This document shows positions 1 through 16,452 of a stretch of DNA of 17,560 nucleotides, piece after piece. The notes beneath the pieces were generated by a model that worked only from the letters and a program-made list of their open reading frames with translations, did no database searches and was not told the DNA's origin. This DNA comes from Thermococci archaeon. Lineage in GTDB: Archaea > Methanobacteriota_B > Thermococci > Methanofastidiosales > B48-G16. A program made the translations under genes and the position numbers. Numbering within the stretch: position 1 is the stretch's first letter; each line of letters begins with the position of its first letter. The stretch covers positions 1-17,560 of the forward strand of contig DAOVEQ010000003.1 of the NCBI GenBank assembly GCA_030668905.1, written 5' to 3'.

Positions 1-60
1 AACGTTCGTTCCACCGTGTCCCTTAAAAACTAGAAAGAAGGAAAAAAGATTGGTGAAAAA

Positions 61-879
61 ATGAAAAAAATTGCAATCGGATTGATTCTCCTGATGGTAC
101 TGGCAGCCATATCTGTCAACGCTGAGGAAAATTCCAAAACAAAGGCAGAAAGAATGATAGGACTGTGTGAAAAGGCACAAGCAAAATTGGGGTCTATTTT
201 AGATAGAATAGAAAACAACGAAGCCGAAGAATTATTCAGAGAAGCAAATGAGGAATTAGACAAGGCTAAAAACCTTTACAACGAAGAAGAATACGACAGA
301 GCTATAGAAAGCTGTTTAGAGGCAATGCATAAATTCAGAGAATGCGCTATGCTGTTAAAAGAAGAAGCTGGTGGAAAAGTTAAAGAAAGGATCGAAGGGC
401 AGATCGAAAGAATGGAAAGTTACATATCGAGAATAAGGGAAATAGTAGAGAATGAAGAGATTATAGCTCTGCTGGATAATGCAGAAACTCATCTGGAAAA
501 AGCAAGGACGTATTTAGAAAATGGAGAGGCAATAAAAGCAGAATCAGAGGTTCAAAAAGCAGGGAATATCTTAAAAAACTTGAAAGAACAGTGGAAAAAC
601 AGATATGGGGAAAAAATAAAGCAAAGACTCGAGAAACTCAATGAAACTGCAAAAAAAAGAATACAGTTCTATGAACAAGCGTTAGATAAACTTAGAGAAG
701 AGGGATACGATGTGCAAGATCTCGAAAAAGATCTTGGAAAGATCGAAAGTGATCTAAATAATGTTAATTCGTTGATAAATGAAGGAAAATACAAGGAAGC
801 TTTGCCAAAAATAAGAGAACTTTACAGAGAAATGCAGGAATTCCAGGAAAAACTTAGGGGAATCAGAAATGAATCCTAA
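61..879 (+). CDS. Secreted all-helical repeat protein of unknown function
   Basis: I do not recognise a named family. Residues 1-21 look like a cleavable signal peptide: a Lys pair, a hydrophobic core, and a cut near VNA-EE. The rest is highly charged, rich in Glu, Lys and Leu, and predicted helical. Three tandem units of about 65-70 residues can be aligned by eye at roughly 29-95, 108-174 and 198-258. Each ends in a helical hairpin with a pattern like LxxAxxLYxExxYxxAlexixxA, similar to TPR hairpins; examples are NLYNEEEYDRAIE near 71-83 and SLINEGKYKEAL near 237-248. The same hairpin recurs in the protein encoded at 1639-2028. The start at 61 is supported by a GGTGA Shine-Dalgarno site at 52-56. 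The stop overlaps the next gene by 11 bases, so the two are probably translated together. A role as an extracellular scaffold or binding partner of the neighbouring membrane proteins is inference only. Confidence 0.8.
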   Translation: MKKIAIGLILLMVLAAISVNAEENSKTKAERMIGLCEKAQAKLGSILDRIENNEAEELFREANEELDKAKNLYNEEEYDRAIESCLEAMHKFRECAMLLKEEAGGKVKERIEGQIERMESYISRIREIVENEEIIALLDNAETHLEKARTYLENGEAIKAESEVQKAGNILKNLKEQWKNRYGEKIKQRLEKLNETAKKRIQFYEQALDKLREEGYDVQDLEKDLGKIESDLNNVNSLINEGKYKEALPKIRELYREMQEFQEKLRGIRNES

Positions 880-1633
880 AATTCTCTTTTTTTTAATTTT
901 TTTTATGATACCTTGTATATACGGAGAAGAAACTCAGGAGTTAAGTATAACTGTTTACAGGGACGGATACTGTCATATTTCTCAGGTGTTGAATGTGGAT
1001 GAAGATATCATGATCAGTATTCCAGTTTTTGGAGAAAATTTAGATAATATTTTGGTTACAGGAAAGAAAGAGATACTCGATTATGATATCTCTGGAAATG
1101 AAATAATTATAGATACAGAAAATAATACAGAGATAAATATAGAGTATGATACTCCCGATCTCACAAGCAAAGAGGGAATAGTCTGGACCTTGGAGATCAC
1201 TTCCCCCATAGAGTTTACTGTGATATTTCCGGAAGGAATAACAGTTATAGATCTGAATAATATTCCATTAGAGATATCAGAAAACAAAATCAAAATATCC
1301 AAAGGTGATCAGGAAATAAGCTATTTCTTCACCGCAGAGACAAGAGAACAGAGTAAGTTTGTCTATTTTCTGGTAGGCATATGTGCGTTTTTATTCTGTC
1401 TGGGAGTTTATGTTCTGCGGGGAAAAAAAATAAAATTTTCAGGACTTACAAATGAAGAAAAAGAAGTAATAGAGTTTTTGAAGAAAAATGGGGATTCTTT
1501 ATCTTCCGATATAAGAAAGAGTTTGAATATCCCAAAAACAACAGCATGGAGGCTTTTCAAAAGATTGGAAGAAAAGGAGATAATAGAGATAAAGAAGGGC
1601 AAAGAAAATTATATAAAACTAAAGAGAGTATAG
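869..1633 (+). CDS. Membrane-anchored winged-helix regulator with extracytoplasmic beta domain
   Basis: A transmembrane one-component sensor/regulator is the likely role. Residues 1-19 form a signal peptide ending near IYG-EE. Residues 20-160 alternate short beta-like stretches and would lie outside the cell. Residues 164-183 form a single transmembrane helix, followed by a basic stop-transfer patch (RGKKIK). Residues 192-254 form a winged helix-turn-helix, with helix 2 and the recognition helix around SSDIRKSLNIPKTTAWRLFKR and a basic wing (IKKGKENY). The layout resembles halobacterial and euryarchaeal membrane proteins annotated as DUF7345/DUF7343 HTH regulators; that family link is from memory and not tested. 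A GGGGA-type ribosome site lies just before the ATG, inside the end of the upstream gene. The overlap with that gene and the 5-base gap to the next suggest one operon, so the extracellular domain may sense the repeat protein or glycans made by this cluster. Confidence 0.8.
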   Translation: MNPKILFFLIFFMIPCIYGEETQELSITVYRDGYCHISQVLNVDEDIMISIPVFGENLDNILVTGKKEILDYDISGNEIIIDTENNTEINIEYDTPDLTSKEGIVWTLEITSPIEFTVIFPEGITVIDLNNIPLEISENKIKISKGDQEISYFFTAETREQSKFVYFLVGICAFLFCLGVYVLRGKKIKFSGLTNEEKEVIEFLKKNGDSLSSDIRKSLNIPKTTAWRLFKRLEEKEIIEIKKGKENYIKLKRV

Positions 1634-1638
1634 ACGCT

Positions 1639-2028
1639 ATGGAAAGAGAAGATATTTTAAAAGAGATGGGTATAAAAGAGCCCCAGAAGGAAGATATAGA
1701 ATCGATACTGGAAAATGAGAATGTGGATTATCTTGTTGGCGGTAAAAAAATCTCAAAAAGAAAGTTATTACTAGCCATTATCGCAGGAACTCTCATATTT
1801 GTTCTTTTAATAAGTACTTTCTACTTCTTAACAAATTCACCAGAAAGAGAATATCGTGATAAGGTAAGAACATTTAAAAAAATGATCCAGGAGAAAAACT
1901 TGGAAGGAAAAGACGTTTCTAATGTAGTCGAACTTTCCAGAAAAGCGGAGATAGCTTATAGAAACGAAGATTATAATCTGGCGTTAGAACTGATTAAAAG
2001 AGCAGTTGAAGAACTCAGGAGATTGTAA
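1639..2028 (+). CDS. Single-pass membrane protein with one helical-hairpin repeat
   Basis: This 129-residue protein has an acidic cytoplasmic N-terminus (1-35), a basic patch KKISKRK, one transmembrane helix at about 43-64, and an outward C-terminal helical domain (67-129). Residues 95-129 (AEIAYRNEDYNLALELIKRA and flanks) align without gaps to the hairpins of the secreted protein at 61-879, so the two share a module. The open frame extends upstream to an ATG at 1546, inside the preceding gene. I chose 1639 because it lies 5 bases after that gene's stop and avoids a 31-residue extension that simply reads the winged-helix codons in another frame. No strong Shine-Dalgarno site is visible, so reinitiation after termination is plausible. 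Its stop (TAATG) overlaps the start of the next gene. Function unknown; it could tether or assemble with the secreted paralogue. Confidence 0.72.
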   Translation: MEREDILKEMGIKEPQKEDIESILENENVDYLVGGKKISKRKLLLAIIAGTLIFVLLISTFYFLTNSPEREYRDKVRTFKKMIQEKNLEGKDVSNVVELSRKAEIAYRNEDYNLALELIKRAVEELRRL

Positions 2029-3524
2029 TGAAAAAATTGAACAGATATGATCTATTGGCACTGGGAATTATAGTAGTAAGTACACTTCTCTCTCTAAAAA
2101 GGCTTAATATTTTTCCAGTTTTTGTGGACATCTTTTATCATATGAGTACAGCAAAAGGATTTGATATGGCAGGAGGCGTTGTTTTGCATGATTTCTGGGA
2201 GTTTGCACCTCTTGGAAGAACCCATCTGTATCCTCCTCTCCTTCACGTAATAATGGCTTTTATGTATGAATTCTTACCTATGGTAACTGTAGGGAAAATA
2301 ATAAGTTTTATAATGTTTCCTCTGGTGCAGTTATCTGTATTCTTTTATACAAGAGAAATATTTGATAGAAAAACAGCTTTTTATGTTGTTCTTTTGATTA
2401 CGATACCTTTCAATTTTTACAGGTCACAGGCTCTTACAAACGCCACATCTCTTGTTCTCGTTTTAACACCGCTAATATTCTGGGCTGTAGAAAAAAATAA
2501 ACTTTTAAGTTCTGTCATACTGATGAGTCTTGCGTTATATACTCATATTTCCATGCCCCATATTGTAGGGGCAGCCCTTATTATATATGCCGTATTAAAT
2601 AAAGATAAAAGAAAGATGGTCATGAAAACTCTTGCTTTCAGTTATCTGCTTTTTTTACCGTGGATGATACATATACTAATAAATTATGGGGAGATGACTT
2701 CAGAGACATTCGGCACGATCTTGCAGAGTGAGATTCATCTAATTCCTATGTTTTTTGGATTTATTGGGCTTGTTTACTGCTTTTTAAAGAAAAAACATTA
2801 TTACCTCCCGGCAATGTATTTCTTATCCATGATTGTGATCCTTTACAAATATCCAATGAGATTCTGGGCACATATAGCATTGGGAATTTCCATTCTTGGA
2901 GGTATAAGTCTTTCAGAGATTGAGAATTCCATACTCAGAAATCAAAAAAGATACGGCCTGAGAATAGGCTTTGTAGTGGCAATTTTGTTTTTAATAGGCT
3001 TCAATCTCTTCGATCCTGTCTTCAGCACGACTCCTCTTGGTAACGAGTTTGAGAACAAAAATCCAACAATCCTGACATTGGCAAAGGGAAATATTGCTCC
3101 GAGTCTCATCACTCAGGAGACAATGGATCTCTGCAGAATTGTCGAGAGTAATATAGAACCTGATGACATATTCTTTATAACGAATCCAACTATAGGATGT
3201 CTTATAACAAGCGTAACAGGGAGATCTCAGATGCAGGGCATGTGGCATGAGGTTCAACCCGATCTGAAAACGCCGCCCTCAGCAGCGAAACTTTTTATAG
3301 CTGATACGAATTTTTTAAATGAGGCCAAAAAAAGAAATCCCGATTTCCTGAGAAATCTGACATACGTAGGAAGGACAGAGAGATATATCGTCTTTTTACA
3401 GGAAAATAAATTCATAACAGCTAAATCTAAAATTCCGAATACTGTTTTTCCAAAAATTTTAGCTTATATACTCCTATTTTTAAGCTTCGTGGGCTTGATA
3501 ATTGATCATCGTTTTAAGCTATAG
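2028..3524 (+). CDS. Polytopic membrane protein, GT-C-like glycosyltransferase fold
   Basis: The protein has 498 residues with about ten hydrophobic segments, a first segment at about 9-27, and a loop holding Asp34 and His38 (FVDIFYH). A conserved-looking HLYPPLLH follows near residues 66-73. An acidic residue in the first outer loop followed by aromatic/proline helices is typical of GT-C enzymes that transfer sugars from polyprenyl-phosphate donors. It also resembles the archaeal and bacterial proteins labelled PTPS-related membrane proteins. Residues about 345-460 form a larger soluble segment, followed by a last helix near 470-492. No WWDYG motif is seen, so it is not an AglB oligosaccharyltransferase. 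The start codon shares an A with the upstream stop, indicating translational coupling. The gene ends with a 6-base convergent overlap with dys. The glycosyltransferase role is inferred from topology only. Confidence 0.68.
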   Translation: MKKLNRYDLLALGIIVVSTLLSLKRLNIFPVFVDIFYHMSTAKGFDMAGGVVLHDFWEFAPLGRTHLYPPLLHVIMAFMYEFLPMVTVGKIISFIMFPLVQLSVFFYTREIFDRKTAFYVVLLITIPFNFYRSQALTNATSLVLVLTPLIFWAVEKNKLLSSVILMSLALYTHISMPHIVGAALIIYAVLNKDKRKMVMKTLAFSYLLFLPWMIHILINYGEMTSETFGTILQSEIHLIPMFFGFIGLVYCFLKKKHYYLPAMYFLSMIVILYKYPMRFWAHIALGISILGGISLSEIENSILRNQKRYGLRIGFVVAILFLIGFNLFDPVFSTTPLGNEFENKNPTILTLAKGNIAPSLITQETMDLCRIVESNIEPDDIFFITNPTIGCLITSVTGRSQMQGMWHEVQPDLKTPPSAAKLFIADTNFLNEAKKRNPDFLRNLTYVGRTERYIVFLQENKFITAKSKIPNTVFPKILAYILLFLSFVGLIIDHRFKL

Positions 3525-4433
3525 TTTCTGCAATAACGCCAGAGTTAGTATAGGAAGAATTATTGTGGCGTCACCTTCTATGGTGACATATTTTGCATTT
3601 TCTTTTATCTTCCCCCACGATATTCCTTCTCTCACTCTTGCGCCGGAGAGAGAGCCGTCCCATTCTGGTGCAGTGGTAATGTAAACAGCATAGTCTAATC
3701 CCCCTCTAAACTGGTTCCACCATATCGTATGGTGCTTCGAGATTCCACCTCCGATCATCAACGCTCCTGTTTTTCCAGCCGAATATATTATCTCAGAGAG
3801 TTCAGTTTCATCTTTCAGCGGGTCTACTCTCAATTTGTTTTCCTGAGCGTACATCCATAACTGGAACCCAAATGCACCATCCGTAATACCGGGGACAAAT
3901 ATAGGTATCTTGTTTTTATATGCCCAGTAAACTATGGAGTCTTTGGAGCTTATATTTTTTCCAATCTCCCATATGAGTTCCTTTGAAGAGTAATCTTTAT
4001 TCTCTATCTTCTCAAATATCTTCTGGAGTTTTTCTTCGAGAATTATACCGTAAGATTCGTTTGGAACCAATACATTTCCTAACCTGTTTATTCCTTCTTT
4101 ATGAAGTTTAACATCGTCTAAATTGAAGTCTCCATGGTAATAATCTTTCCAGATTCTTGCCAGATCGTGATCTAAAGTCCCGCACGTAGTAATAATACAA
4201 TCAAAGAGTTTGTTTTTTATCAGATCTTTTATAACACCCCTGGCACCTGTAGCTATTATACATGCGGGAAATGAAAGGAACTTGTAGCATTCTTCTTTCT
4301 CCATTTTTTCTAGAATATTCAATCCCAAAGCCATTTTTTTACCAGTGAATCCACCAGCTTCATACATCTCGTCTATTAGATCCTTAACGCTCATGTCTTT
4401 CCTTATCTTTATATCCTCAACTTTTTTCTGCAA
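3519..4433 (-). CDS. dys: Deoxyhypusine synthase
   Basis: It transfers the aminobutyl group of spermidine to a lysine of translation factor aIF5A, an NAD-dependent first step of hypusine formation. The family signatures are clear: ITTCGTLDHDLAR at 81-93, FVPGITDGAFGFQLW at 179-193, GGGISKHH at 228-235 with the catalytic Lys233, and APEWDGSLSGAR at 255-266. The length of 304 residues is normal for archaeal enzymes. The start appears to be TTG at 4433, because an excellent site GGTGATC lies just before it. That site falls in the 9-base gap after the SppA-like gene stop, so the two are probably cotranscribed. The next in-frame ATG (residue 14) would be the alternative. The 3' end overlaps the convergent membrane gene by 6 bases. 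Archaeal enzymes may use homospermidine or agmatine-related routes; the sequence does not decide this. Confidence 0.96.
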   Translation of the reverse strand: MQKKVEDIKIRKDMSVKDLIDEMYEAGGFTGKKMALGLNILEKMEKEECYKFLSFPACIIATGARGVIKDLIKNKLFDCIITTCGTLDHDLARIWKDYYHGDFNLDDVKLHKEGINRLGNVLVPNESYGIILEEKLQKIFEKIENKDYSSKELIWEIGKNISSKDSIVYWAYKNKIPIFVPGITDGAFGFQLWMYAQENKLRVDPLKDETELSEIIYSAGKTGALMIGGGISKHHTIWWNQFRGGLDYAVYITTAPEWDGSLSGARVREGISWGKIKENAKYVTIEGDATIILPILTLALLQKL

Positions 4434-15832: not shown

Positions 15833-15998
15833 TTGGTTGATTTTTCTTTATCTCAAATATGGAAACAGATATATATCTTAGTAGGGTAGAGATTTTTAAA
15901 ATATAATGTTAGAAAAATATGACACATCCATATAAAACCGATGAGATCTATAGAAAAAAGAAAAAGATTTATTAAAAGAAGTGATAGTAGGTGATATC
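15833..15998 (+). promoter_or_regulatory. Intergenic region before hicBA, with palindrome and TATA box
   Basis: A T-rich stretch (TTTTTCTTT, 15841-15849) after the reductase gene may end its transcript. A perfect 12-base palindrome AGATATATATCT lies at 15867-15878. A TATA box ATATAAAAC at 15930-15938 predicts a start near 15960 and a leader of about 40 bases with the ribosome site AGGTGAT at 15989-15995. The low-complexity palindrome could be an operator, but chance is not excluded in such AT-rich DNA. Confidence 0.4.
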
Positions 15999-16232
15999 AT
16001 GAAACTATTAAGCTATAGAGTTCTGCTTAGGAAAGAGCCTGAGGGAGGTTATACGGTAACAGTTCCATCTCTCCCCGGTTGTATTACATACGGGGACACA
16101 ATAGAAAAATCAATAGAGATGGCAAAGGAAGCCATCGAATTATACATAGAAAGCTTGAAAGAGCACGGTGAAGAGATACCTACGGAGAAGGAGACTTTAG
16201 AATACACCCTAACGGTAGAAGCTCATGCCTAA
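15999..16232 (+). CDS. hicB: HicB-type antitoxin
   Basis: This is the antitoxin of a type II toxin-antitoxin pair, which binds and masks the HicA ribonuclease. The partial RNase H-like fold is evident: SYRVLLRKEPEGGYTVTVPSLPGCITYGDT, followed by the helix IEKSIEMAKEAIELYIESLKEHGEEIP. This is the standard HicB signature (GGY.V.VP.LPGC...G.T..EA). At 77 residues it is a short form with no C-terminal ribbon-helix-helix or HTH domain, so it probably cannot repress its own promoter alone. The frame opens at a GTG at 15981, but the ATG at 15999 is preceded at perfect distance by AGGTGAT and fits the family N-terminus. It overlaps hicA by 8 bases. Confidence 0.92.
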   Translation: MKLLSYRVLLRKEPEGGYTVTVPSLPGCITYGDTIEKSIEMAKEAIELYIESLKEHGEEIPTEKETLEYTLTVEAHA

Positions 16233-16452
16233 ACTTCCAACCCTTACTCCTAAGAAAACTATCAAGATTCTCGAAAAGAAAGGATTCGTACTGGATAGGG
16301 TGAAAGGAAGTCATCATATTTATTACCATCCAGTAACAAAAAGGAGAGTTATTGTTCCTCTCCATAAAAGAGATTTGCCAAAGGGAACATTGATCGAAAT
16401 TTTAAAACAGGCAGGCATAAGTAGAGAGGGGCTGAAAAAGATACTTGAGTGA
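16225..16452 (+). CDS. hicA: HicA-type mRNA interferase toxin
   Basis: This is a small double-stranded-RNA-binding-fold ribonuclease that cleaves mRNA when released from HicB. The 75 residues show the whole family pattern: KKTIKILEKKGFVLDRVKGSHHIYYHP with catalytic His30 in the GSHH motif, then RRVIVPLHKRDLPKGTLIEILKQAGIS. It follows hicB with an 8-base overlap; antitoxin-first order is common for short HicB partners. No separate ribosome site is needed if translation is coupled. Toxicity and target sites cannot be judged from the sequence. Confidence 0.94.
   Translation: MPKLPTLTPKKTIKILEKKGFVLDRVKGSHHIYYHPVTKRRVIVPLHKRDLPKGTLIEILKQAGISREGLKKILE

Follow-up and report, generated by a model that had tools for sequence, protein, structure and literature searches.

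A conserved pair of a secreted helical protein and a predicted transmembrane transcription regulator in Thermococci and other archaea, a candidate autoregulated signalling module

Four closely packed genes open a 17,560-nucleotide stretch of DNA from a Thermococci archaeon (contig DAOVEQ010000003.1, hereafter the window), and raise the question of which of them belong together and what they may do. The genes, here named G1 to G4, lie on the forward strand and encode a secreted, all-helical protein of 272 amino acids (aa) considered a candidate extracellular modulator (G1, 61..879), a predicted transmembrane transcription regulator of 254 aa (G2, 869..1633), a single-pass membrane protein of 129 aa with a weakly TPR-like C-terminal part and full-length matches in the genus only (G3, 1639..2028), and a polytopic, possibly GT-C-like protein of 498 aa with relatives elsewhere that lack the G1-G2 module (G4, 2028..3524). 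A preliminary description, made from the letters of this stretch, had read the four genes as a single envelope system, pointing to their tight packing; this packing is as claimed, with an 11-base overlap between G1 and G2, a 5-base gap between G2 and G3, and a 1-base overlap between G3 and G4. Our comparisons indicate that the older conserved unit is the G1-G2 pair, and that the four-gene set is known from the genus of the window only. We propose that G1 and G2 probably constitute a one-component, transmembrane signalling module that regulates itself: from outside the cell, G1 would modulate its own expression through G2.

The arrangement recurs among relatives of the same genus: one locus (L033) displays the complete four-gene set with identical overlaps, a second (L031) contains the same genes and overlaps up to a contig end that cuts G4, and in a fourth genome (L032) the contig stops within G2. 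Chance as the origin of the four-gene arrangement is excluded. A near relative, Thermococci archaeon B48_G16, encodes a G2 that is 91% identical to that of the window. Beyond the genus, G2 relatives were detected in 50 of the 61 genomes searched (E<=1e-3), and, at E<=1e-40, in 98 of the 115 genomes that the tool assigns to the phylum; all 115 pass E<=1e-5, a level that the winged helix alone can reach, and in the ten genomes of family f4 the match is far weaker than 1e-40.

The recurrence of the gene order elsewhere had been named beforehand as a test in the preliminary description, and it separates the four genes, since G1 and G2 travel together while G3 and G4 were not found beside the pair in the places listed outside the genus. 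Within the 61 genomes, 42 of the 48 G1 matches stand directly upstream of a G2 match on the same strand. In the window and 70 further loci, 71 of 81 G2 have a G1-type gene as their immediate same-strand upstream neighbour, a rate that rests on single linkage (phmmer E<=1e-3) and is valid for loci chosen, as these were, for G2 or G1 matches. A second collection gave G1 upstream of 32 out of 35 G2 matches, the exceptions being a contig start, a split G2 and a different gene; it partly overlaps the first, with at least 4 of its 30 contigs agreeing in length (8417, 24973, 59211 and 8805) with contigs of the first set. One of these contigs belongs to Candidatus Methanodesulfokora, of the class Korarchaeia, and in a korarchaeal set G2 was present in 21 of 26 genomes (E<=1e-10), with a G1-type gene upstream in 25 of 29 rows at a loose cut-off (E<=1e-2); a wider search around the korarchaeon added three genomes, one of them with a match. 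Two G1-G2 pairs were found in one locus in 16 cases. A viral origin of the module was also considered and rejected, as a pattern scan of viral_contigs confirmed no G2 relative.

The anatomy of both proteins was predicted from sequence and models. The hydropathy profile of G1 displays a single, N-terminal hydrophobic segment, and its AlphaFold2 model comprises eight helices, including the signal peptide, and zero strands (mean predicted local distance difference test score, pLDDT, 85.5). Its fold had no Foldseek match at E<=0.001, and VIA-align returned mainly designed proteins and generic helical bundles, from which no family was drawn. In G2, hydropathy indicates a signal-like segment and one transmembrane segment near residue 165. 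The model places a beta-rich ectodomain at residues 20-155 (926..1333, + strand) and, together with hydropathy, a transmembrane helix at residues 161-184 (1349..1420, +), followed by the motif RGKKIK, whose positive charge marks the cytoplasmic side; a winged helix occupies residues 193-254 (1445..1630, +) and contains a recognition helix, PKTTAWRLFKRLEE (1532..1573, +), that is near invariant in the class of G2 accompanied by the operator described below. This winged helix yielded the only Pfam matches over the cut-off among the four proteins (TrmB, 26.4 bits; HTH_24, 25.0 bits), those of G1 and G3 being sub-cut-off, and 28 of 32 aligned G2 members match HTH_24 at E<=0.01. DUF7343 (PF24034) stays below its cut-off in the window G2 (22.2 against 27.6 bits), is matched by 28 of the 32 members at E<=0.01, and exceeds the cut-off in three (L049, L051, L053). 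The earlier picture of a membrane-spanning G2, with a winged helix inside and a beta domain outside, agrees with hydropathy, Pfam and AlphaFold2.

G1 divergence tracks the G2 ectodomain and not the winged helix. Over 67 pairs, retained after length and neighbour filters, G1 distance correlates with ectodomain distance at r 0.88 and with winged-helix distance at r 0.70; the partial correlation of G1 and ectodomain given the winged helix is 0.75, reached by 0 of 500 permutations (which ignore the tree), and that of G1 and winged helix given the ectodomain is -0.12. In the loci with two pairs, G1 and the ectodomain point to the same nearest paralogue in 0.90 of comparisons. Further, four G2 of 188-197 aa (L057, L067, L111, L112) end after the transmembrane segment and lack the winged helix; G1 is still upstream of them, with the site in front, which fits an extracellular partnership. 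Both results argue against an explanation in which G1 is only a product of the operon, i.e., a structural or chaperone-like envelope protein, with G2 sensing other external cues, e.g., membrane state, ions or temperature, and the pairing a matter of output and not of interaction. Such an explanation would accommodate the solitary G1 genes that carry the operator, as well as the G1 model, a simple array of helices for which the fold searches gave no clear match; we regard it as rather doubtful. Signalling from outside to inside by G1-G2, as had been suggested for the whole cluster, is well supported for the pair, and is not extended to G3 and G4, which are tied to it in the genus only.

The promoter of the pair provides a further line of evidence. 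Upstream of G1-type genes we identified a candidate operator in two forms, either GRAAC direct repeats at a 10-bp period or a GRAACGNNCGTTYC-type palindrome. The contig of the window begins inside the palindrome, so that its last 13 bases remain (AACGTTCGTTCCA, 1..13, no strand assigned); the full form in relatives is TGGAACGNNCGTTCCA, complete at the same place in L031, L032 and L033. Neither this operator with its remnant nor the pair as the conserved unit figured in the preliminary description. Behind it lies a promoter element that we read as TATA-like with a weak transcription factor B (TFB) recognition element (BRE) (TCCCTTAAAAA, 19..29, + strand). The palindrome is perfect (14/14) in four promoters, which come from three families, and at least 11 of its 14 positions fit in 33 of 74 upstream stretches, against about 0.7 in order-1 Markov sequences; for the combined operator pattern, the Markov expectation is 0.2 of 74. 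Either form precedes 61 of 73 genes directly before G2, compared with 8 of 674 other genes, a count on which the idea of a general promoter element was rejected, and 0 of 80 G2 genes, all from the same loci. Here the 73 are all same-strand genes of at least 200 aa directly before G2, the window being left out for its short upstream stretch, and three of them (L052, L053, L054) are not G1-type, which changes the proportion to 61/70. When the upstream stretches are grouped into clusters whose DNA can be aligned, 13 of 17 clusters have the operator (13 of 15 without two non-G1-type clusters). The second collection behaves similarly, with the operator at 24/30 against 5/191 others; of these five, four share a gap with a G1 on its other side, and the fifth is itself a G1. 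The palindrome lies 21 or 22 nucleotides from the promoter element in 34 of the 38 G1-type promoters with a relaxed palindrome. In the korarchaeal set, a repeat picked after reading the sequences, GTTCC-N5-GTTCC, precedes 5 of 23 upstream genes, against 0/64 others and 0/29 G2. In the first collection, GTYCC-N5-GTYCY precedes 7 of the 73 upstream genes, against 3 of 678 others.

The recognition helix varies along with the site. Among 55 G2 with the helix PKTTAWR[ML], the site is present in 52, absent in 2 and truncated in 1, the window. Three G2 with PKTS[AS]WRM all have it; it was found in 0/5 with PKTTVWRM, 0/5 with PRTTTWRI, 0/2 with PKTSLSKL and 0/1 with PKTSTWRM, the last at a locus whose palindrome has one mismatch. 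Helix and site associate across related sequences, which does not by itself prove contact; while the site emerges from comparison, its binding by G2 is what we infer. A strict scan of the 61 genomes identified 38 sites in 33 genomes, of which 28 are at G1-family genes, four of these solitary: 25, judged by coordinates, coincide with the beginning of a G1-type gene (solitary in one case) and three precede solitary genes matching the G1 profile (301-390 bits), and in 2 of the 28 the called open reading frame (ORF) begins ahead of the site. Three similar-looking genes, for proteins of 106-123 aa (L280 2316-2636, L267 107-439, L272 1555-1926), have the site 25-50 bases upstream, two in its strict and one in its relaxed form; these proteins had no Pfam match. 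The eight remaining strict sites fall within called ORFs, in one case 72 bases past the called start, and are taken as chance occurrences.

These observations suggest a circuit in which G1 would be exported and bind the beta ectodomain of G2 outside the membrane, and G2 would pass the signal through its single predicted transmembrane helix to the cytoplasmic winged helix, which would bind the operator, in its GRAAC-repeat or palindromic form, immediately ahead of the weak BRE and the TATA-like box from which G1 and G2 would be transcribed. Free G2 would most likely activate by recruiting TFB, and G1 on the ectodomain would turn G2 down, the outcome being a feedback loop open to titration, with G1 itself as the main output; in this genus, G3 and G4 behind the pair may add an envelope output. 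By analogy with CpxP, G1 might in turn be titrated by a surface ligand or a damaged envelope protein. CpxP, likewise secreted and helical, acts back on the membrane sensor CpxA, which controls the CpxP gene; CpxA is a histidine kinase, whereas G2 would be both sensor and DNA binder. Binding, the sign of regulation and the cellular role are inferences of this proposal.

With respect to the sign, the operator abuts a weak BRE, which favours activation by TFB recruitment, and activation appears to us somewhat the likelier of the two. The comparison is with TFB-RF1 of Pyrococcus furiosus, which, in the consulted part of the source, activates the operon that encodes it and has a very narrow regulon, with a palindrome immediately ahead of a weak BRE and a partner gene that precedes TFB-RF1 in the operon (PMC5937170); by sequence comparison, the site of the G1-G2 promoter likewise lies directly upstream of a BRE that is weak relative to the consensus VRAAA given there. 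The palindrome of TFB-RF1, TCTG-N5-CAGA, is different from ours. The same circuit with the opposite sign, in which G2 would be an autorepressor covering the BRE until released by G1 or a ligand of G1, seems a possible but less probable alternative: a promoter-proximal GTYCC half-site occupies the BRE position in several promoters, and there is the precedent of Lrp of Pyrococcus, which inhibits its own gene, according to the same partial source (PMC5937170). Nevertheless, the palindrome lies upstream of BRE and TATA, the usual position for archaeal activators, and the sequence at the BRE position departs from VRAAA (PMC5937170, as above).

The downstream genes bear on a further reading, a four-part surface-modification machine in which G4 would move a lipid-linked sugar to G1 or the S-layer, with G2 as regulator and G3 as anchor. 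The hydropathy of G4 yields eight segments over the threshold, in agreement with a polytopic protein; its likeness to glycosyltransferases of the GT-C type holds less well, as the match to Pfam PMT_2 reaches 20.5 bits and the cut-off is 26.1. In a similar way, G3 has the expected single transmembrane segment (near residue 43), and its supposed kinship to G1 was the weakest statement of the preliminary description, with a BLASTP E of 0.14 across 26 residues (for a one-sequence database) and a score of 14.7 bits with the G1 profile. Matches to G3 occur in 7 of 61 genomes at E<=0.01, full-length in 3, all in the genus. At E<=1e-5, relatives of G4 were found in 22 of the 61 genomes, with no listed place beside G1-G2 outside the genus, and in the loci examined from other families the genes behind G2 are unrelated and frequently lie on the opposite strand. 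Thus, one old system of four genes was rejected, since G3 and G4 do not accompany the pair across other families, and the cluster looks like a genus-level operon built onto the older G1-G2 pair. The tight packing kept within the genus, the weak GT-C-type match of G4 and a G2 ectodomain fold like that of an oligosaccharyltransferase subunit are compatible with the four-part machine; the absence of G3 and G4 beside the module outside the genus makes it highly improbable. A role of G4 in surface modification is a guess. As a separate observation, the opening residues of G3 are similar to the C-termini of further small proteins in the genus (L115 3168-3626, L116 3055-3516), perhaps a shared docking peptide.

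Returning to the proposal of an autoregulated G1-G2 module, several observations weigh against it. G1 proteins are helical and of low complexity, and the links among them may be partly compositional. Ten of the 81 G2 lack a G1-type neighbour (six are behind a 113-115 aa HTH-like protein, two behind a 206-207 aa membrane protein, one behind another gene and one at a contig end), and 6 of the 48 G1 matches, four of them long, have no adjoining G2 match; from four solitary G1 genes, two carry the operator and two do not. The site is missing before 12 of the 73 upstream genes, three of which are non-G1-type, five or six form a single class in genus g8, and one has a single mismatch in the palindrome. 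The repeat and palindrome patterns were chosen after inspecting these same promoters, to which the repeat was fitted: a period of 11 bp was tried first, with 0/73, and then that of 10 bp. In the strict scan, a backwards control pattern also yields 29 sites, 20 of them in three genomes, and it is the location of the sites, not their total, that is informative. Finally, the GTYCC half-site in the BRE position fits repression equally well. The three non-G1-type genes among the 73 and the overlap between collections slightly lowered our confidence, both in this proposal and in the four-part machine.

The modelled ectodomain fold of G2 appears similar to that of an oligosaccharyltransferase subunit, by inference OST1, and the N-domains of M1 peptidases. 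It is conceivable, and quite improbable, that the ectodomain and transmembrane helix are a true archaeal cousin of the luminal domain of OST1/ribophorin I, in which the ribosome-binding domain has been replaced by a DNA-binding one; in that case the module would inform the chromosome about secretion or protein glycosylation at the membrane, with G1 as titrated reporter and the genus-specific G4 as glycosylation output. OST1 differs in its cytosolic domain, which is ribosome-binding according to the part of the source consulted (PMC11417166) where G2 has the winged helix, and in the lack of a sequence match over the cut-off. Ribophorin_I (PF04597) was over the cut-off in 0 of 61 genomes; sub-threshold matches of 15.2 and 14.4 bits appeared in genomes G004 and G007, that of G007 within a G2-like gene, and a control set gave matches in 2 of 14 genomes too, none over the cut-off.

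Several described systems share parts of this design. The membrane-bound regulator with an outside-facing partner presumably has a counterpart in ToxR-ToxS. In TcpP-TcpH, compared by description, a membrane-bound regulator is likewise under a second, outside-facing protein; TcpH is a single-pass membrane protein in the consulted part of the source (PMC11323476), whereas G1 is predicted to be secreted and helical, and is encoded upstream. ArnR and ArnR1 of Sulfolobus are archaeal membrane-bound one-component regulators (PMC6396743), with the HTH in the N-terminal region (PMC13286277), and in G2 it is C-terminal, with the ectodomain in front; both sources were consulted in part. A survey of transmembrane transcription regulators (TTRs), also consulted in part, counts Thermococci among the clades with a high TTR share of signalling genes (PMC10269533). 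Like the TTRs described there, G2 combines in one protein a DNA-binding domain and at least one transmembrane region, the latter predicted; it differs by a DNA-binding domain located C-terminally, behind a signal peptide and ectodomain, by a secreted partner encoded next to it in distantly related archaea and by a site at its own promoter (PMC10269533). TTRs are a known kind, and what appears to be new is a secreted partner kept over great distance together with a conserved own-promoter site. The literature searched, i.e., titles and beginnings of abstracts, with subscription papers mostly outside, contained no description of the pair or the site.

Some neighbouring genes were recorded in passing. 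A gene that looks deoxyhypusine-synthase-like lies at 3519-4433 of the window, convergent with G4; in four family f3 genomes (L034-L037) it stands immediately before G1, so that this neighbour, too, accompanies the pair. Genus g8 (L048-L050, L069, L070, L103) contains a further G2 class, which lacks both G1 and the site and is the one behind the 113-115 aa HTH-like protein. Solitary G1 genes without a nearby G2 match, some with the site, occur at L085, L086, L088, L089, L244, L256 and L258, and several adjoin what is presumably a leucyl-tRNA-synthetase- or Xaa-Pro-peptidase-like gene. The window also includes a TrpB-like gene and, at 15981-16452, two adjoining small genes resembling a HicB-HicA toxin-antitoxin pair, a label assumed without a search; a tRNA scan, in which RNA families were not covered, found no tRNA genes.

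On the largely unsettled question of how archaea monitor their envelope, the G1-G2 pair offers a compact, widely kept sensor candidate with both a candidate ligand and a DNA site. Should the ectodomain prove to be a cousin of OST1, the module would be a minimal archaeal analogue of an envelope or endoplasmic reticulum stress response; and if the half-site is indeed common to Thermococci and the korarchaeal set, it would mark an unusually old promoter circuit that can be traced by sequence. Genetic tools exist for Thermococcus, and the relatives of the pair in that genus make the hypothesis directly testable.

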